In this document: positions 7,718 through 27,508 of the stretch, in pieces
Position numbering within the stretch: the first letter of the stretch is position 1
Layout: every line of letters begins with the position of its first letter
IMG/VR virus record: IMGVR_UViG_3300030430_003832
Location: 1-42,161 of that record
Reading direction: 5' to 3' (one strand)
Source of the DNA: a virus
DNA: 42,161 nt
Translations under genes and position numbers: made by a program
Notes under the pieces: model-generated
Seen by the model: the letters and a program-made list of their open reading frames with translations, nothing else
The model's database searches: none
Told to the model about the DNA's origin: nothing

Positions 7718-8350
7718 ATGAGTAAACAATTATTAACAGAGTTTTTTGAACTATGTCCTGACGGACGCTGTCTCGATATGCTTAGCGAAAGACAAAAGCG
7801 CGAAGTTATCGAAGAGGGTGTTATTTATCTTACTGGTCGAATACAAACTGCTGAAAAGAAAAATGGAAACGGACGTGTCTATCCTCGCAAAGTTTTAGAG
7901 AAAGAAATTACCAACTACCAAAAAATCGTCAGAGACAATAGAGCAACAGGGGAACTGGATCACCCTGAAGATTCTGTGATCAATCTTAAAAATGTTTCAC
8001 ACATTGTAGTTGAGTGTTGGTGGAAAGGTAACGATGTCATGGGCAAAATCAAAGTTCTTGATACCCCATCAGGTCGCATACTGAAAGATCTGATCAAAGC
8101 AGGGGTCAAGCTTGGTATATCGTCACGAGGACTAGGATCTGTTAATGAAGGATACGATGGAACAATAACTGTCAATGAGGACTTTCAATTGATTTGTTTT
8201 GACATTGTATCTGAACCATCGACCCCAAACGCATACGTATATCCAGATGAAAAGCGTAACATGTTCGGTGCCGATACATTTAAAGTCAAAATGAAAGAGA
8301 ATAAAGATAATCAGATTGACGATCTATTTAATAAAATATTGAGGGACTAA
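7718..8350 (+). CDS. 21: Prohead core protease (gp21-like)
   Basis: This serine protease matures the T4-type prohead by cutting scaffold, capsid and internal proteins after Glu with a hydrophobic residue at P3. It has 210 residues, the same size as T4 gp21 (212). Visible hallmarks are TGELDHPE with the catalytic His at about 82, and GISSRGLGS with the catalytic Ser at about 135-136. The ENGNGRVYP-like segment (KKNGNGRVYP, about 47-56) is also typical of the fold. The gene starts after a GGAGATATAA ribosome site. It does not directly precede the scaffold gene as in T4: about 10 kb of fibre genes intervene. The stop overlaps the next start. Confidence 0.93.
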   Translation: MSKQLLTEFFELCPDGRCLDMLSERQKREVIEEGVIYLTGRIQTAEKKNGNGRVYPRKVLEKEITNYQKIVRDNRATGELDHPEDSVINLKNVSHIVVECWWKGNDVMGKIKVLDTPSGRILKDLIKAGVKLGISSRGLGSVNEGYDGTITVNEDFQLICFDIVSEPSTPNAYVYPDEKRNMFGADTFKVKMKENKDNQIDDLFNKILRD

Positions 8351-18490: not shown

Positions 18491-18522
18491 TTGTGATAAA
18501 CTATTACTTAGGAGAGATATTA

Positions 18523-19614
18523 ATGTCATCTATGCTAGACCAAGCCATCGTCGATGCGCAAGCACTTCGAGAGGCCGCTCTCAAAAATGCAGAGCAAGCC
18601 GTTATTGATAAGTACGCACCAGAGATTAAAGCTGCTGTTGACTCATTGCTGGAAGGCGATGATAAAGAAGTCATCACTGAACAAGAAGCGCCCGCAATGG
18701 ATGCCTCCGCAGAATCAGGCTATGAAATACCCTTTGCGTCTGATCCCGGAGCAGGAGATGCCCCAGTTGAAATGAGCCTAGAATTTGAATTCAACCCAGA
18801 AGATTTTCATCTAGATCTCGAAGACCTTAAGGTTGCTGCTGAGAAACAGCCGGGTAAGCCTGAAGCGAAAGAAGGCACAGAAGAACTTGCCGGATCGCTA
18901 GGCTTAGAATCCCCAGATGAAGGTGGAGGAATGGAAGCAGAAGCCGGTGGTGACGAAGGTGGAGATCTTGACCTTGGTGCCTTAGAAGAATCTCTACAAG
19001 AAGATGATGACGAAGAATTACTAAATGAATTGATGGATCTTTTAGAAGAAGATAACATCGAAGAAGCTCTAAAGGTTGATACATCTCAACAGAAGCATGG
19101 ACACTTTGTAACAGACGCAGGTGCTAGAAAGTACGACGAGGAGTTGGAACTAGCAGGACAGCAGTCAACAGAGTACAGAGAGTACGCTGATGAGCTTGAA
19201 AAAGAAGTTGAAGATTTAAAAAATACTATCTTGTCATACCAATCAACACAAGATAAGCTTCACGGAACCATTGCTGATATGAAAGCAAAGATCGAAGAAG
19301 CACTTGTGATGAATGCAAGATTACTATATTCCAATAGGATATTAAGCGATGCCTCCTTGAATGAGCGACAAAAAACTAAAATTGTTGAAGCCATCGCACA
19401 GGCAGAGACCATAAAAGAAGCAAAGACAATTTGTGAGACTCTTAAAGAAACTATAGTGGGTACCGCTAAGAAGGGACCAAAATCACTTAGTGAGTCTGTT
19501 AATAGAAGGTCTAATCTATCTCACGTCCTGCCACGTAGAAAACAGCAAAAATTAAATGAGACTCTCGATTTTGCGAGTCGCATGAAAAAACTTGCTGGTA
19601 TAGACGATAACTAA
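18523..19614 (+). CDS. 22: Prohead scaffold protein (gp22-like)
   Basis: This is the main internal scaffold of the prohead, destroyed by the protease after assembly. At 363 residues it exceeds T4 gp22 (269). I chose the ATG at 18523 because it has TTAGGAGAGATATTA before it; a GTG at 18493 would lie in the promoter region. It begins with a helix (MSSMLDQAIVDAQALREAAL), then a long acidic Glu/Asp/Gly tract (about 45-185) including GGDEGGDLDLG, and a long coiled-coil (about 210-330), then a basic end. The placement directly before the major capsid gene and the acidic/helical make-up fit gp22. The acidic insert accounts for the extra length. Confidence 0.88.
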   Translation: MSSMLDQAIVDAQALREAALKNAEQAVIDKYAPEIKAAVDSLLEGDDKEVITEQEAPAMDASAESGYEIPFASDPGAGDAPVEMSLEFEFNPEDFHLDLEDLKVAAEKQPGKPEAKEGTEELAGSLGLESPDEGGGMEAEAGGDEGGDLDLGALEESLQEDDDEELLNELMDLLEEDNIEEALKVDTSQQKHGHFVTDAGARKYDEELELAGQQSTEYREYADELEKEVEDLKNTILSYQSTQDKLHGTIADMKAKIEEALVMNARLLYSNRILSDASLNERQKTKIVEAIAQAETIKEAKTICETLKETIVGTAKKGPKSLSESVNRRSNLSHVLPRRKQQKLNETLDFASRMKKLAGIDDN

Positions 19615-19637: not shown

Positions 19638-21455
19638 ATGTCTATTATACAAAAGTTATCAGAAGGTATCGTCAACCGCGACATGAAAGCGGAAGGTGCT
19701 GCACTTTTGAACAAGTGGGAGGCTACCGGTCTCCTTGAAGGTCTTGGAGACCAAAGAGAAAAGGCGACTATGGCTCGTCTCCTCGAAAACCAAGCAAAGG
19801 AGCTTCTTCGAGAATCTTCCAGCATGAGTGCTGGAGATGTTGAGGGTTTTGCTGCTGTTGCTTTCCCAATCGTTCGTCGAGTATTCGCCGGACTTATCGC
19901 AAATGATCTTGTAAGCGTTCAGCCCATGAGTCTTCCTTCTGGACTGATCTTCTTTCTTGACTTTGTTTACTCACCAAGCGTTGCTGGACAAGCAGACCAA
20001 ACTTCTCGCTTTGGTAACAATGTTGAGAAATCTATCTACGGCACAGATCAGGTTGCTTCTCAGGTAACTGGTGGTGTTGATATTGTAGGTGCTACCTATA
20101 AAGAAAACATCAGCGGTCTGAGACAACAAGTTGGTTATGCTTACTCCTCTCCAACTGGTTCTAACGATGGTGCGATCACACAAGCACACATCACAGTTAA
20201 CGCTGCTTTCTTGCTTAATGGAAGTGTCACAGAAGCAAACAAAAAGCTTATCCAATACGACCCAGATCTTCTGGCTAGTGAAGATTCAAGCTTGGGTGTT
20301 GTTGTTCTTGAGATTGACGAAGCAGAGATTGCCAATTCTACCGGTGTTTCTTCAATTGATTTTGAAAACCTTTCTGCTATTGAATTGAAAGATATGACCG
20401 CTATTGATGCTGTTGTTGATGCTCTTGGAGCAAACCCAGATCGTCATATTCGTCGTTTGACTGATCGTGTCGCTTCTTCTGCTTCAGGTACTGGAAACGC
20501 TGCTCTTCGTTTCGTTATTGTAAACGATGCTGCTGATGTTACAGCAGGTGATACAACAAAAACTGGTGGAACCGCGCTCGCTGCTGGGGCTGTTGTGTAT
20601 CCTCTGAAAGATGTGCTTACATCAACTGCTAACAAACTTGGAACTATTGATGGGTATAACTTTGCATTTGAAGGAACAGAAGCGATCCCAGAGATCGATA
20701 TCAAGGTAGACTCAATCGCTATCGTAGCACAAACCAAGAAGCTTAAGGCTAAGTGGACTCCTGAGTTGGGACAAGATCTCAACGCATACCACAACTTGGA
20801 TGCTGAGGTAGAATTGACTTCTATCCTTTCAGAGCAGATCGCTCTTGAGATTGATCGTGAAATCCTTGCTGATCTTGTAAATGGCGCAACTGCTGCGACT
20901 TATTACTGGTCTCGTTCGCCCGGACTCTTTGTCAATAAGGAAACTGGTGCTGAGCTTGGTGCAACTTCTGCTGCTCCTGACTTCACTGGAACTGTTTCTG
21001 AATGGTATGAGACTCTGATTGAAACCATTAATGATGTTTCTGCTCAAATCCACTTGAAGACACTTCGTGGTGGTGCTAATTACATCGTCTGCGGACCTGA
21101 AGTTGCTAACATCCTTGAGTTCACCAGCGGATTCCGTGCAAACGTAACTGCTGATGCTGATAAAGGTGACATCGGTGCTGTTAGGGTCGGTGCTCTTAGT
21201 CGTAAGTTCGACGTAATCGTTGATCCTTATTTCCCACGAAATGTAATTCTTGTTGGACGTAAGGGAGGTTCTTTCCTTGAGTCTGGTTATGTATATGCGC
21301 CTTATGTGCCTCTACAGACCACTCCGACAATCTTCGGTGTAGATGACTTCGTACCACGTAAGGGTGTGATGACTCGCTACGCTAAGAAAATGGTTCGTCC
21401 TGACATGTACGGACTGGTTATCTGTCGAGGACTTCTTGGTGAGTCTGGTTCCTAA
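19638..21455 (+). CDS. 23: Major capsid protein (gp23-like)
   Basis: This is a HK97-fold shell protein of 605 residues, longer than T4 gp23 (521). The N-terminal region (LLNKWEATGLLEG, then LLENQAKELLRESSS) matches the T4 pro-segment. ELLRE at about 55-59 is a candidate maturation site (L-x-E). Conserved parts include FPIVRRVFAGLIANDLVSVQ (about 76-95), PMSLPSG, KLKAKWTPELGQDLNAYHNL with EVELTSILSEQIALEIDREI, and the C-terminal YVPLQTTPTIFGVDDFVPRK. The extra length is mostly a loop-rich central section (about 130-350), probably surface insertion domains. The AAGGAGG site is among the strongest here. A strong terminator follows. Confidence 0.96.
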   Translation: MSIIQKLSEGIVNRDMKAEGAALLNKWEATGLLEGLGDQREKATMARLLENQAKELLRESSSMSAGDVEGFAAVAFPIVRRVFAGLIANDLVSVQPMSLPSGLIFFLDFVYSPSVAGQADQTSRFGNNVEKSIYGTDQVASQVTGGVDIVGATYKENISGLRQQVGYAYSSPTGSNDGAITQAHITVNAAFLLNGSVTEANKKLIQYDPDLLASEDSSLGVVVLEIDEAEIANSTGVSSIDFENLSAIELKDMTAIDAVVDALGANPDRHIRRLTDRVASSASGTGNAALRFVIVNDAADVTAGDTTKTGGTALAAGAVVYPLKDVLTSTANKLGTIDGYNFAFEGTEAIPEIDIKVDSIAIVAQTKKLKAKWTPELGQDLNAYHNLDAEVELTSILSEQIALEIDREILADLVNGATAATYYWSRSPGLFVNKETGAELGATSAAPDFTGTVSEWYETLIETINDVSAQIHLKTLRGGANYIVCGPEVANILEFTSGFRANVTADADKGDIGAVRVGALSRKFDVIVDPYFPRNVILVGRKGGSFLESGYVYAPYVPLQTTPTIFGVDDFVPRKGVMTRYAKKMVRPDMYGLVICRGLLGESGS

Positions 21456-22467: not shown

Positions 22468-23712
22468 ATGGCATTACCAACTTTAACACCTGTATCTAAA
22501 ACTTCTGCAACTATATTGCCGAAGACAGGATCGACTGCCAATGTTGTAGCAGCACTACCGTTGGGAGTATACTCAGGATCGGCAGAGTTTATAACTGGGG
22601 CAGCTGCGCAAGTTGCATATACTTTTAAAAGACTAGGTGGCGATGTCTTAGATATTGAAATTACAGAACAAAACGTATATGCCAATTATGAAGATGCGGT
22701 TCTTACATACTCATACCACGTTAACATACATCAATCCAAAAACATCATGGGATCAGCACTTGGACAGGCCACTGCTTCATTTGATCACAAGGGTGAAATA
22801 ACCGACGGTGAAGGTCAGGCACTTAAGTATCCAAAGTTCTCTTTCGAAGCAGCCTTCAGAGTTGGAGATACGTTTTCCACAGAGGCAGGTGTTGGAGGAT
22901 CTACACCTATCTACAGTGCTTCATTTGATACCGTTGCTAACCAGCAGGACTATGATTTACAGTCAATTGTGAGCTCGTCTTCTGATGCTGGGGGTGTACT
23001 ATATGCTGGGAAAGTTGGCACAAAAAGAATTAAAATTAGGCAGGTTTATTACGTAAGTCCACAACAGATGTGGAGATTTTACGGATACTATGGTGGTCTA
23101 AATGTTGTTGGGGATTTTCACAACTATGGTCAATATGCTGATGAGTCGACTTTTCAAGTAATCCCCTCTTGGCACAACAAACTGCAAGCGACCGCTTATG
23201 AGGATCACTTATATACAAGAACATCACATTATTCATATGAAGTCATAGATAATAAGCTTAGACTCTATCCGATCCCAAGAAGTGTTTCACCAGAAAAGTT
23301 TTGGTTTAGATTTACCATAACTGGTGAAAATATATTTGATGACGAACACGACGAAGGAATCAGAGGTGTCAACAACATGAACACTTTACCTTTTCAAAAT
23401 ATTCCGTACGAGAACATAAACTCTATTGGTAAACAGTGGATTAGAAAATATTCTCTCGCACTTTCAAAAGAAACTCTTGGTCAGGTTAGGGGCAAGTTTG
23501 GTGGTAACATTCCAATTCCCGGAGAAAGTATTAGTTTGAACGCCTCGGATTTATTAGGACAAGCAAAAGATGAACAATCATCATTGATCGAAGAGCTGAC
23601 AAAGGTTTTAGATGAAATGACTTATCCTAAATTAATGACGCAAGATGCTGAGATGACTGAGAAAGCCAAGGACATATCTGCGGATGTTCCACTTAAAATA
23701 TTTGTAGGATAA
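22468..23712 (+). CDS. 13: Neck protein (gp13-like)
   Basis: This head-completion protein binds the portal after packaging and prepares the head for the tail. It has 414 residues against 309 in T4. The C-terminal part carries the family pattern: KQWIRKYSLALSKETLGQVR, then GKFGGNIPIPGESISLNASD, then LLGQAKDEQSSLIEELTKVL (about 322-385). Upstream, IKIRQVYYVSPQQMWRFYGY (about 189-208) and the IDNKLRLYPIP segment (about 258-268) also fit. The N-terminal ~160 residues exceed T4 and are beta-rich. TTGGAGGATC is the ribosome site. gp14- and gp15-like genes follow after one unknown gene. Confidence 0.8.
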   Translation: MALPTLTPVSKTSATILPKTGSTANVVAALPLGVYSGSAEFITGAAAQVAYTFKRLGGDVLDIEITEQNVYANYEDAVLTYSYHVNIHQSKNIMGSALGQATASFDHKGEITDGEGQALKYPKFSFEAAFRVGDTFSTEAGVGGSTPIYSASFDTVANQQDYDLQSIVSSSSDAGGVLYAGKVGTKRIKIRQVYYVSPQQMWRFYGYYGGLNVVGDFHNYGQYADESTFQVIPSWHNKLQATAYEDHLYTRTSHYSYEVIDNKLRLYPIPRSVSPEKFWFRFTITGENIFDDEHDEGIRGVNNMNTLPFQNIPYENINSIGKQWIRKYSLALSKETLGQVRGKFGGNIPIPGESISLNASDLLGQAKDEQSSLIEELTKVLDEMTYPKLMTQDAEMTEKAKDISADVPLKIFVG

Positions 23713-23715
23713 AAA

Positions 23716-26181
23716 ATGCAACGATTAGTAGAGAATTGGAGAAAATATCTTCACGAAATTTCAGATGAGGAGAGATCACATCTAGATGATGCTATGGATG
23801 TACCGGTTGAAGATTATTTATTTGGTCACATCTTTGGAGAGGAGAGCTATAGACTTATTTCGCCAATAAGCGTAACCGTAGAGGCTGATGGTGAGATGGG
23901 CGAAATAACAAAGATGTTGTTTAAACAAGGCTGGTCTATTGCTTGGGAAGAAAAAGGCTTTACCTGCTCCAAACTCATAACAAAAACTTGGATTGGTAAA
24001 GATGGGAAAGAAAATTCTCGTGAAGTTATAGAAAGAATGAAATTAACAACGGTCATTTTAAAAATGATAAACGCTATTGACCCTGCAAAGTTCAGTAAAA
24101 TATATGATAAAATAGAAAACGAACAAAACAAAACTGAAAAGAGAAAACTGATTTTAAAATTTAATGAAGTTTATAAAAAATGGTTTGGTGATATTTTACT
24201 AATGATGCGTATAGATATGGATTATCCTTTTCAAGATGTTATAAAAGATCCATTTCGAGTGGCAAGGCATTTTATGGCAGTTGCACAAATGTTTAAAACT
24301 AATAGACAAAGCATGATACAGTCGCGTAAAAAATTACAGGGATTTATTGATTGGCTTGAAGTAAATACAGCAGACATTATGGCTAACCTACAATCTTATA
24401 GAACTAAAAAGTATCACATGATTTTATCTAGACATCCAGTCGATGTATTTCGCATGTCAGATCACGAAAAGATTCAATCGTGCCACGCACCGCCCTCTTC
24501 GGAATACAAAGGTGGCATGCGACAATACGATGAGTATAACATTTGTGCCCTAGCAGAAGCACATGCTAACGGTATGATTGCATATCTTGTTTTGGAGGAT
24601 GAGTTCAAGCGTGCTGGTATTGAACCCACACAGGAAGAGATGGATAAATTAGAAGACAAAGAGATATTCGCAGATCCACAAAGAGGAGTTGAAGGTCTAA
24701 ATCCAGTTTCTAGAACTAGGGTTAAAAATATGTCGTACAGAAACGAAGATGTTTTGTTAAACTTTGCCGTTCCACATGCAAAAGTCTACGGGGACAAAGT
24801 CCCCGGCTTTATTGACCACTTATACTCTGTTATATCCCCAGCACAAGAAGAAGATGCAAAAAGACTCCTAGAGCTCGAAGGCGATGTTTTAGATTATGAT
24901 AAGTTTACAAAATATGGTGGAACCTACGAGGATTCAGGTTATGAAGCGGACATGAACATACTCGCATTTATCAATGGATTCTCAGACAAAAATATAACAG
25001 GAACTGGTTTTGTAAATCATGACGACGATATACAGCAAGCACTTAAGGACTCATTTGGAGATCCAAAAGATGCCATGAGGTTGAGACTAGATGAGATAGA
25101 AGAAGAGTATAATATGACTGATGTCACCCTTCCTCTTAAAATAATTCCTGATTTTTTCATAGACGATCTTGGTGATCACAACTATGAGATCACTATGAGA
25201 ATAAGAATGTTTTGTTATGTAAATATAAACAAAAAACCCGGCCTGACTGATGGAGAGTTGGACTTTCATATTGAAGATGCATTTTACGAACTCGCCGAGA
25301 TATATGAGATACCACGTCCAAACAATCTTGGCTGCATGCAGCAGGATAGATTTCCCGGATATAACTACGAGATTTATTTAGAGTGGGACCTTCACCATGG
25401 TGCTCTTAAGCTTATGGGCATGAGAGGAAGCTTGGATATTGATGAACTCGAACACATGCTTGATACCGCTTACTACCATGGCTACCCTGCTCCAAATTTG
25501 GTGAACAAGTTCTCCCCATCTGATAAGATTGAAGATTCAATACCTGCTTATGTTGAAAAGTTCTTAGAGAAAAATAACTATTCTGTTAGCACCAATTATG
25601 CAATCGACGAGTTTCACGCGTACATTGAAGATAATCGAGATGTAATGTGGGAAAGCGAAGTGAAAGATTACGACGATGACCGGTTCTTTGGAGAGATCCC
25701 GTTTGCACTAAGTGTTGTATCCGATGGTTTTATTGATATGTATCCATATAGTGGGTTTATGAAAGACGCAGGGTATGAGAATATGGAACAGGAGATACAA
25801 TTCAACCCAACCCTTGCCGACTTGGCTATGAGAGTCTTAAAGTTTGAAATACAGGATCATTACAGACCACTTCAAGTTACCGTTGCTTTTGAAAGTGTGC
25901 TTAGCGCAGAAGACTTGAAAGAAGACGAAGGCGTGCCAGTTACAATATCATTCAACATTGACTCAGATGCTTCCGAGCGAGAGCTAGAAAAACTCCTAAG
26001 TATCAAGGACGATGATTACACTGAGGTGGTAGAAGCAATAAATGAAAAAGCAGTAGCAAGAATGAAACAAATGAAAGAGAAATATCAAAAAACTAAAGAA
26101 AAAGAAATAGAAAGACAGAGACAACAACAAATCAAAGAGATGAAGAAGAACAACAAGATCAAAGTAAGGTTCAGGAGATAA
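23716..26181 (+). CDS. Large tagged protein of unknown function, Cys/His motif
   Basis: This 821-residue protein separates the gp13- and gp14-like neck genes. The N-terminus MQRLVENWRKYLHEISDEE is a second type of short helical tag with a candidate prohead-protease site L-H-E. After a charged helical region (about 90-230) comes the most distinctive part, residues 235-292: ILSRHPVDVFRMSDHEKIQS, Cys256-His257, then Cys277 and AEAHANGMIAYLVLE. The invariant-looking His, Asp, Cys and Glu suggest an enzyme site, but no known fold is identified. The C-terminal half is acidic with repeated aromatic beta/alpha segments. The last ~45 residues are a basic coiled coil. It may be packaged in the head, as T4 Alt is; this is inference. 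Confidence 0.85.
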   Translation: MQRLVENWRKYLHEISDEERSHLDDAMDVPVEDYLFGHIFGEESYRLISPISVTVEADGEMGEITKMLFKQGWSIAWEEKGFTCSKLITKTWIGKDGKENSREVIERMKLTTVILKMINAIDPAKFSKIYDKIENEQNKTEKRKLILKFNEVYKKWFGDILLMMRIDMDYPFQDVIKDPFRVARHFMAVAQMFKTNRQSMIQSRKKLQGFIDWLEVNTADIMANLQSYRTKKYHMILSRHPVDVFRMSDHEKIQSCHAPPSSEYKGGMRQYDEYNICALAEAHANGMIAYLVLEDEFKRAGIEPTQEEMDKLEDKEIFADPQRGVEGLNPVSRTRVKNMSYRNEDVLLNFAVPHAKVYGDKVPGFIDHLYSVISPAQEEDAKRLLELEGDVLDYDKFTKYGGTYEDSGYEADMNILAFINGFSDKNITGTGFVNHDDDIQQALKDSFGDPKDAMRLRLDEIEEEYNMTDVTLPLKIIPDFFIDDLGDHNYEITMRIRMFCYVNINKKPGLTDGELDFHIEDAFYELAEIYEIPRPNNLGCMQQDRFPGYNYEIYLEWDLHHGALKLMGMRGSLDIDELEHMLDTAYYHGYPAPNLVNKFSPSDKIEDSIPAYVEKFLEKNNYSVSTNYAIDEFHAYIEDNRDVMWESEVKDYDDDRFFGEIPFALSVVSDGFIDMYPYSGFMKDAGYENMEQEIQFNPTLADLAMRVLKFEIQDHYRPLQVTVAFESVLSAEDLKEDEGVPVTISFNIDSDASERELEKLLSIKDDDYTEVVEAINEKAVARMKQMKEKYQKTKEKEIERQRQQQIKEMKKNNKIKVRFRR

Positions 26182-26184
26182 CGC

Positions 26185-26676
26185 ATGGCTGGTAATAAGT
26201 GGAAAAAATCTGATTCCCCTCCGCCACCAATGTTTTTTGGTGAAAAGGAAAAGGATCTTGTCAAACAAGTTAACGACGAAGTTATTGAGCGTGTCGTTGG
26301 GCAGCAGCTGTTGTACTTTCCTATTGACATTGATCACACCAACTTTCACCCTCTGTATGGTGAGGCCATAGAGAAAACGTTTCTACCACCAGTAAGAGTG
26401 TTTGCTAGGGTTGAGTATCAAGGTGTTGAGACTGCTATGCTGGAGAATATGGCGCTAGATAAAAAGACCGGACTCAAGGTCATGTTTCACAAGCGAAGAC
26501 TGACAGAGGATCAAAATCTCTTTGTTAGAGAAGGAGACTTTGTAAAGTACGGAAAAATATTCTATGAAATAGTTACTTTAAACGAACCCAAGCATCTTTT
26601 TGGACAAGCCGACGTTCAGTTTGAAATTCAGGCTACCTGTATAAGAGCAAGAGATGGAGTCTTTAATGCCGAGTGA
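26185..26676 (+). CDS. 14: Neck protein (gp14-like)
   Basis: This 163-residue protein is about a third shorter than T4 gp14 (256). A polar Pro-rich start (SDSPPPPMFFGEKE) leads to a helix, then GQQLLYFPIDIDHTNFHPLY, GEAIEKTF and PPVRVFARVEYQG. The G-x-x-x-x-YFP ... YGE order resembles the gp14 neck-adaptor pattern. A beta-rich C-terminal half follows with EGDFVKYGKIFYEIVTLNEP. The position after gp13 and before a gp15-like gene and the sheath is as in T4. CAGGAGATAACGC is the ribosome site. The assignment is by pattern and order and could instead be another head-tail adaptor. Confidence 0.65.
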   Translation: MAGNKWKKSDSPPPPMFFGEKEKDLVKQVNDEVIERVVGQQLLYFPIDIDHTNFHPLYGEAIEKTFLPPVRVFARVEYQGVETAMLENMALDKKTGLKVMFHKRRLTEDQNLFVREGDFVKYGKIFYEIVTLNEPKHLFGQADVQFEIQATCIRARDGVFNAE

Positions 26677-27508
26677 CACAAAAGAAATAACATATCAACC
26701 ATCGACTTTGGAAACTATTGATACAGGAATATATGAATGGGTTGACAAAGTGTTGGATCTTCATACCAAAACTAATAAGGGAATATATAAAGTTCCAGTG
26801 TTGTGGCTTGGTTCCGAGAGGGTATTCCAAGTTAAAAACGATCAAAGAATAAGGGATAAAGTTGGCAAGCTCATTCTTCCTCTCACCACAATCAACAGAA
26901 CAACGGTGACAAAAGACCCTGCTTTCAAAGGCGCTCTCCAAGCCAATCTTGTAGAAACAAATGATTACAGGGGCGGTGCAATTGGTGCGGCAAAGAGGAT
27001 CAATCAAGAAAAAACTAGTAATTTTCAAAGCACAATACAAAATAAGATTACTAAAGGTAATCAACAAACCGGCAAAAACCCTGACAATAGCGAGATCGTT
27101 TATGATACATTTGAGATTCCGGTGCCGGTGTATGTGGCTATTACATACTCAGTTACATTGAGAACCGAGTACCAGCAGCAAATGAATGATCTTATGTCAC
27201 CCTTTATTACAAAGACAGATCAAATCAATTCTTTTGTGTTTACACAAGATGGTCACAAATATGAAGGTTTCATTCAGCAAGATTACAGTATGAATAACAA
27301 CACAACAAATATCGGTGAAGAAGAGAGAATGTTTGAAACAAAAATTGACATAAAAGTTCAAGGCTACCTAATGGGCGAAGGCTACAACAGAGACAAACCA
27401 AACTTTTCTAGGCGAGAAAACAGAGCTAAACTTCGCTTTACTGGAGAAAGAGTCATGGTTGGAGATAAAATCCCATGGAAGACCAAAGACAATGATTATA
27501 AAGAGTAG
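26666..27508 (+). CDS. 15: Tail completion/terminator-like protein (gp15-like)
   Basis: I chose the ATG at 26666 because GGAG lies 6 nt before it; an ATG at 26654 overlaps that site and has none of its own. The 280-residue product matches T4 gp15 in length (272) and position, between the neck and sheath genes. Features are a beta segment KVPVLWLGSERVFQVKNDQR, then ILPLTTINRTTV, and a domain (about 145-235) with FEIPVPVYVAITYSVTLRTE and MFETKIDIKVQGYLMGEG. In T4 gp15 caps the tube and sheath and joins them to the neck. It overlaps the gp14-like gene by 11 nt. Confidence 0.6.
   Translation: MPSDTKEITYQPSTLETIDTGIYEWVDKVLDLHTKTNKGIYKVPVLWLGSERVFQVKNDQRIRDKVGKLILPLTTINRTTVTKDPAFKGALQANLVETNDYRGGAIGAAKRINQEKTSNFQSTIQNKITKGNQQTGKNPDNSEIVYDTFEIPVPVYVAITYSVTLRTEYQQQMNDLMSPFITKTDQINSFVFTQDGHKYEGFIQQDYSMNNNTTNIGEEERMFETKIDIKVQGYLMGEGYNRDKPNFSRRENRAKLRFTGERVMVGDKIPWKTKDNDYKE

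Follow-up and report, generated by a model that had tools for sequence, protein, structure and literature searches.

A marine phage protein with a capsid-targeting-like tag is probably packaged in the head and carries the core of an undescribed superfamily

Introduction

Phage T4 loads its head with a few small internal proteins and with Alt. The capsid-targeting sequence (CTS) of T4 consists of the first 10 residues, and those of IPIII suffice for packaging (PMC9026906). Within the CTS, targeting depends mainly on residues 4 and 7 and processing on residues 8 and 10 (PMC9026906, PMC3012670), the T4 protease gp21 cleaving after L/I-X-E (PMC9026906). Beyond the CTS, the internal proteins have little in common (PMC3012670).

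Here we analyzed a virus record of 42,161 bases (hereafter the window, meaning the whole stretch of DNA analyzed), which carries a T4-like head and tail module including terminase, portal, head maturation protease, gp23-like capsid protein, tail sheath and baseplate hub. One of its genes encodes an 821-residue protein that starts with a short tag and holds a Ser-Cys-His motif at residues 255-257, and we call it the SCH protein. Judging from sequence evidence, we consider it probable, at roughly 0.6, that the SCH protein is a protease-trimmed, head-packaged ejection protein.

Results

The open reading frame is intact and translates to 821 residues, as an earlier note on this DNA described. It is a real gene under purifying selection: compared with its relative in locus L001, dN/dS is about 0.11 (dN 0.14, dS 1.19, 688 codons; dS is saturated in the core). 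The earlier note placed the gene between neck genes. This holds on the upstream side, where the neighbor is the Ad2 adaptor, but the two downstream genes matched no PHROG or PDB chain, although they do come before the tail sheath gene. The N-terminal tag (MQRLVENWRKYLHE) and the basic C-terminal end that it pointed out are both present, the latter as a K/R-rich helix within residues 768-821 (18 K+R, 8 D+E). The features are collected in Table 1, where the scaffold role of one product was assigned because its gene precedes the capsid gene.

Table 1 Features of the window and parts of the SCH protein (a slash marks a predicted or possible cut).
Feature	Position	Strand	Basis
821-aa tagged protein, marine member of the "HPxD-MS-SC" superfamily	23716..26181	+	ATG start, intact ORF
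Head-tail adaptor Ad2, upstream neighbor	22468..23712	+	phrog_211, 6.9e-8; synteny
163-aa downstream neighbor, conserved	26185..26676	+	synteny; putative, no PHROG/PDB match
284-aa downstream neighbor, conserved	26654..27508	+	synteny; putative, no PHROG/PDB match
Head maturation (prohead) protease, predicted to cut the tag	7718..8350	+	phrog_207, E 1.4e-57
gp23-like major capsid protein, LLRE/SSS near propeptide boundary	19638..21455	+	phrog_138 9e-71; PDB 6uzc 5e-28
Probable scaffold/core protein, nine [LIVM]xE/[AGSQ] sites	18493..19614	+	sites counted
Residues 1-14, capsid-targeting-like tag MQRLVENWRKYLHE; predicted cut after Glu14 (L-H-E)	23716..23757	+	Glu14 column, tag statistics, T4 rule
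Residues 230-406, conserved alpha/beta core	24403..24933	+	alignment; core model pTM 0.75, pLDDT 78.6
Residues 238-257, SRHPVDVFRMSD...SCH motif	24427..24486	+	alignment; profile match to jumbo-phage family
Residues 277-290, C277/E281/G286/Y290 helix and strand	24544..24585	+	invariant in 70/70
Residues 333-359, strands 3-4: R333, R335, [KR]xYG (Y358-G359)	24712..24792	+	alignment and model
Residues 454-620, tentative C-terminal alpha/beta domain	25075..25575	+	VIA, Z about 4-5
Residues 641-787, tentative second C-terminal alpha/beta domain	25636..26076	+	model, VIA
Residues 768-812, long basic helix	26017..26151	+	model; sequence composition

The tag has the consensus MKLLLENWRKYLxE (Trp-aligned form M-K-L-L-L-E-N-W-R-K-[FY]-L-x-E), and MKLLLENWRKYLNE is another example of it. 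Its end, [FY][LI]xE, is of the kind that also closes the T4 CTS. When every ORF from the retrieved marine loci was scanned with a regular expression and redundancy was then removed, 101 tagged proteins were left, 30 with the SCH motif and 71 without it. Relative to the Trp, which the scan pattern required, position +3 is F/Y in 94 of them, +4 is L/I/V in 92, and +6 is Glu in 83 even though the pattern did not require it. The core of the pattern is 88-fold enriched within the N-terminal 22 residues of ORFs compared with their interiors. A [LIVMF]xE site follows within 11 residues after the tag in 94 of the 101 proteins, compared with 20% at randomly chosen places within these proteins, and the Glu14 column is invariant in 29/29 full-length relatives. 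In the window protein the tag ends as YLHE/I, a site of the prohead-protease type (L/I-X-E), and the window genome encodes both a prohead protease and a gp23-type capsid protein. Because the tag is enriched at protein starts and ends in a protease-type site that is also found in the capsid and scaffold proteins of the window, it is most simply regarded as a capsid-targeting sequence that behaves like the T4-type CTS.

The start of the protein is not uniform throughout the family. The relatives in L006, L009 and L010 start with a different N-terminus (MNLTKDFLRSLIIEEMNKQINE) that also ends in xNE, and a few others start with MKIKVK. No second tagged gene was found in the window, and none of the cultured phages searched for the tag carried it. 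A second conserved family of about 550-700 aa (L066, 5186-6826; L098, 4699-6420; L112, 2503-6335) has a related tag, FESFRKYS..TEEQLLVEGR, together with a segment DPSGNQKYLMxAA.

Tagged genes stand in rows in L067, L076, L080, L083, L093, L170 and L172. The rows in L170 (12950-17204), L172 (13204-16651), L076 (11647-13947) and L080 (4703-10781) consist of NUDIX, kinase-like, HAD-like, nucleotidase-like, ART-like and 2H-phosphoesterase-like genes. Pfam searches with ten tagged proteins gave NUDIX (3e-16), protein kinase (1.8e-6) and the HAD-like DUF2608 (2.9e-5), as well as weaker matches, mostly under the cut-offs, to GNAT, ART-PolyVal, nucleotidyltransferase, NT5C and 2'-5' RNA ligase. A further protein kinase match within the tagged cargo had 5e-8. 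In some proteins such domains are joined to the SCH core itself. A 1,218-aa protein in L084 (6723-10379; also in L085 and L089) has DUF2608 (7.8e-6) between the tag and the core, and a 1,746-aa paralogue in L166 (7671-12911) consists of the tag, the core and a C-terminal Peptidase_M23 domain (1.3e-8, above the cut-off). A tagged protein with an M23 domain fits the expectation for a protein that crosses the cell wall with the DNA. The 1,746-aa paralogue also shows repeated LREAIRxAI-like segments towards its C-terminus.

IMG/VR was scanned first with the motif region and later with alignments, which yielded 12, then 68 and finally 112 related stretches, on about 110 contigs, so that the impression of similar segments in other marine phages proved right; full-length relatives are mostly 755-980 aa. 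In L037 (707-3136) two ORFs of 217 and 579 aa stand in place of one SCH gene, owing either to a frameshift or to an error in sequencing. Searches of Pfam, PHROGs, NCBIfam and PDB sequences with the window protein gave no significant match; a match to Fibrinogen_aC (0.0026) was set aside, being under the family cut-off and absent from the other relatives scanned. No marine-type relative was found in GTDB genomes by direct search, and tblastn of INPHARED with five family members gave nothing usable except one gut phage lead at E 2, later seen to be a distant relative.

The residues H240, D243, D249, S255-H257, C277 and E281-H283 sit at the positions given earlier. In 70 aligned cores, which reach down to 32% identity to the window protein, 22 positions are invariant: R239, P241, D243, R246, M247, D249, C256, H257, C277, E281, G286, Y290, E316, D320, R323, P330, R333, R335, Y358, Q377, G401 and D406. 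This conservation is far beyond chance. DVFRMSD and two patterns around C277 served as seeds for the wide scans, so the conservation of these areas comes partly from the selection of hits; C256/H257, R239 and all positions from E316 onward lie outside the seeds and are unbiased. The metagenome-scale alignment thus upheld the conservation of the motif with two exceptions. From the set of residues proposed as invariant at 235-292, Asp249, Cys256, His257, Cys277 and Glu281 showed no variation across 69-70 core sequences, but position 240 varies among the marine cores (H 59, D 8, N 1, S 1), as does position 283 (H 40, Y 23).

The core reaches beyond the marine phages. Comparison of the core structure with viral models by Foldseek gave A0A516LC34 (1.8e-12) and jumbo-phage proteins, and an independent structure match to A0A384ZXE1 of Dickeya phage JA29 (E 0.037). 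A search of the JA29 genome with the core profile gave JA29_179 (E 0.04 alone), which adjoins JA29_178 (653 aa); by length, JA29_178 corresponds to A0A384ZXE1, and Lu11_0208 and Lu11_0209 to I1TQL5 and I1TQL6. Both JA29 proteins have LSMHPYD[IV]AGMST..GWTSC and an IAY strand. When the marine profile was aligned by hhalign with that of 15 jumbo cores, the probability was 98.0% (E 1.6e-13, 102 columns) and the score 81.5, against 12.7 +/- 2.4 (maximum 19.7) for 100 column-shuffled controls. The weak gut-phage match led to a family from Clostridia elements with LSxHPCDFLEMSN..xWxSCH, whose profile matched the jumbo (E 1e-7) and the marine profile (E 6e-5). Since the marine, jumbo and gut profiles match significantly, the core represents, as judged from these comparisons, a superfamily not described before that extends to jumbo phages and Clostridia elements.

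The commonest residues shared by the superfamily are P241, D243, M247, S248, C256, R333 and Y358; H257, D249, C277 and E281 are not common across it. His257 is replaced by Met in the jumbo-phage relatives, and Thr or Asn stands at the site of Asp249 outside the marine family. Therefore, a catalytic dyad or triad drawn from H240, D249, C256 and H257 was rejected in that form, H240 varying even among the marine cores.

The jumbo-phage proteins (JA29_178/179, Lu11_0207-0209, Erwinia Alexandra_191, Yoloswag_182 and AUZ95153 of Atu_ph07, a phage whose virion list has 131 proteins (PMC6102473)) share with the marine core HPxD...MS...[ST]C, the IAY strand, P..R and [RK]xYGxPVPGF, but they have Met for His257 and no C277/E281 helix motif, and the JA29 proteins are untagged. 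Apart from one "putative exonuclease", every jumbo member seen carries the annotation hypothetical. Annotated SSB and recombination endonuclease genes lie near the core in Dickeya and Erwinia jumbo phages. In Pseudomonas phage Lu11 (L185, 11644-19016), three superfamily genes, Lu11_0207-0209, stand in tandem, annotated as hypothetical.

The Clostridia and gut SCH proteins (L138-L160; phrog_18912) resemble the marine core in the segment given above and in the IFF/IAY strand. They differ in having a Cys-rich, zinc-ribbon-like C-terminus and no tag, and in standing beside DNA ligase, M20-like and PcfJ genes; an NAD-dependent DNA ligase is near the core in nine gut loci. In L138 (281-2149) a PcfJ-like gene (PF14284, 2.2e-21) lies ahead of the gut SCH gene and has an LHHCV motif that is perhaps distantly related to SCH. 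A search for phrog_18912 in 148 genomes of one class returned only the starting genome. Because the jumbo and Clostridia relatives are without the tag, packaging does not belong to the core domain as such.

AlphaFold2 modeled the full-length protein with pLDDT 75.7 and pTM 0.50, and the core alone, from 70 sequences, with the better scores given in Table 1, although the motif loop 250-277 stayed below pLDDT 50. The search of the full-length model against the PDB gave nothing significant, its VIA rows falling mainly over the C-terminal domains. For the core, where the PDB comparison consisted of the VIA list only, all 50 listed rows were GNAT-fold enzymes with weak scores (best 8xj9: Z 4.5, rmsd 3.9, 124/202 aligned). 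One possible reading is that the core belongs to the GNAT-type acyltransferases as a divergent member and, once injected, modifies a target in the host, for example RNA polymerase or tRNA. The order of strands and helices fits, and the [KR]xYG closing strand 4 looks like the opening half of the CoA motif Q/RxxGxG/A, but the second half is missing, with no G/A two residues on. A Z below 5 is weak, the low-confidence loop includes the motif, and comparison of the marine and jumbo cores with a small GNAT profile of 10 sequences gave scores of 11.4 and 11.9, the same as the shuffled nulls (means 12.2 and 10.8). We therefore take a GNAT-like fold as doubtful and an injected acyltransferase as unlikely. 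The model and fold search agree with the view that no known fold can be assigned, and neither a clear match to a known structural family nor a loss of conservation in the motif appeared. An ART domain was also not detected by Pfam in the window protein or in the relatives scanned.

The order of neck genes, SCH gene, 163-aa gene, 284-aa gene and sheath gene is kept in most close relatives. Among the loci with visible flanks, the adaptor is the nearest recognised upstream gene in 66 and the 163-aa gene lies downstream in 69, counts that are not independent (nor is the count of 48 given below) because several loci overlap on one contig. This strict place between the adaptor and pre-sheath genes would suit a non-enzymatic structural or assembly part of the neck or head-tail junction, as would the strong purifying selection across the compared sequence and the weak resemblance of the C-terminal domains to chaperone folds (residues 454-620 to type III chaperone, YbjN and ARPC2 folds; VIA, Z about 4-5). 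Such a role is nevertheless improbable, because in 48 other loci the gene is outside the neck cluster, the tag is common to unrelated enzymes, some proteins join the core to a HAD-like or an M23 domain, several genomes hold two SCH paralogues (one up to 1,746 aa), and relatives lie beside DNA genes. Copies outside the neck cluster are still tagged, for example with MRTFNNTWKKFLTE or MNINDWRSFLQE. A GroEL-like gene, recognised by eye from its VASTLGPRGRNVIL signature, is near the second SCH paralogue in L166 (3276-4850), L167 (1124-2704), L168 (1512-3080) and L169 (11055-12626).

That the protein acts unpackaged in the infected cell, its tag docking to another phage complex, is equally improbable: the jumbo relatives do lack the tag and lie among replication and recombination genes, and RecA-like and 5'-3' exonuclease genes are near the SCH core in several large marine contigs, but the tag ends in a prohead-protease-type site matching the processing end of the T4 CTS, and the window gene sits in the head and tail module.

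Discussion

Our analysis favors a protease-trimmed ejection protein carried in the head. The first 14 residues would anchor the newly synthesized protein in the prohead core, much like the T4 CTS, and the head maturation protease of the phage would then cut after Glu14 (L-H-E/I) to leave an 807-residue mature protein in the head; both packaging and cleavage have good support, and the protease and the site are present. At infection the protein would leave with the DNA, as the T4 precedent and the M23-fused paralogue suggest. Taken jointly, these three steps of packaging and delivery seem likely to us. The earlier proposal of a head-packaged, Alt-like enzyme is accordingly kept in part: the CTS-like tag and the M23 fusion suggest delivery by the virion, but an enzymatic activity and a His/Asp/Cys-His catalytic site are conjectural.

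What the alpha/beta core does after delivery is a guess as far as its chemistry is concerned. The core is rich in invariant Arg and also has an invariant Cys, and its target in the cell might be nucleic acid or else a host protein. The gene neighbors, the sole clue to function beyond delivery, point to DNA handling, since other lineages have genes for DNA recombination, DNA repair or DNA ligase beside the core; a role of the core on the DNA side is thus possible though tentative, and our best guess would be early DNA protection, repair or takeover.

A broader hypothesis, which we hold as speculative and rather doubtful as a whole, is that a shared cleavable tag loads a toolkit of unrelated enzymes into the heads of uncultivated marine T4-like phages, and that the SCH protein is the most conserved item of this toolkit, with a new Cys-dependent chemistry and a core from an undescribed superfamily spanning marine phages, jumbo phages and Clostridia elements. 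If our reading of the tag is true, it would be a second capsid-targeting peptide, and the cargo of many uncultivated marine phages could be read directly as the ORFs starting with it, making dozens of NUDIX, kinase-like, HAD-like and ART-like unknowns predicted proteins of early takeover or counter-defence. Through the core, the marine phages are also connected with jumbo phages available in culture (Dickeya JA29, Erwinia Alexandra, Pseudomonas Lu11), which makes its function accessible to tests.

Among known systems, the T4 internal proteins IPI-IPIII with their CTS are similar in the short N-terminal tag, the L/I-X-E site, the cut by the maturation protease and the use of one tag for unrelated cargo (PMC9026906, PMC3012670). 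The marine tag differs from the T4 CTS in its sequence, in its central Trp and in its length of about 14 instead of 10 residues, and the marine cargo is larger and more enzyme-like than the T4 internal proteins, its packaging being predicted from sequence. T4 Alt is likewise large and starts with a short propeptide of 7 residues that is cleaved off (PMC9026906), and like Alt the window protein is probably packaged and ejected; it has no detectable ADP-ribosyltransferase domain, however, its core is unrelated, and its gene stands among neck genes. The polyvalent proteins (PMC5512222) are also large, probably injected and multidomain, with M23, ART-like and HAD-like companions, whereas the marine cargo is mostly encoded by separate genes with a common short tag and not by one giant polypeptide.
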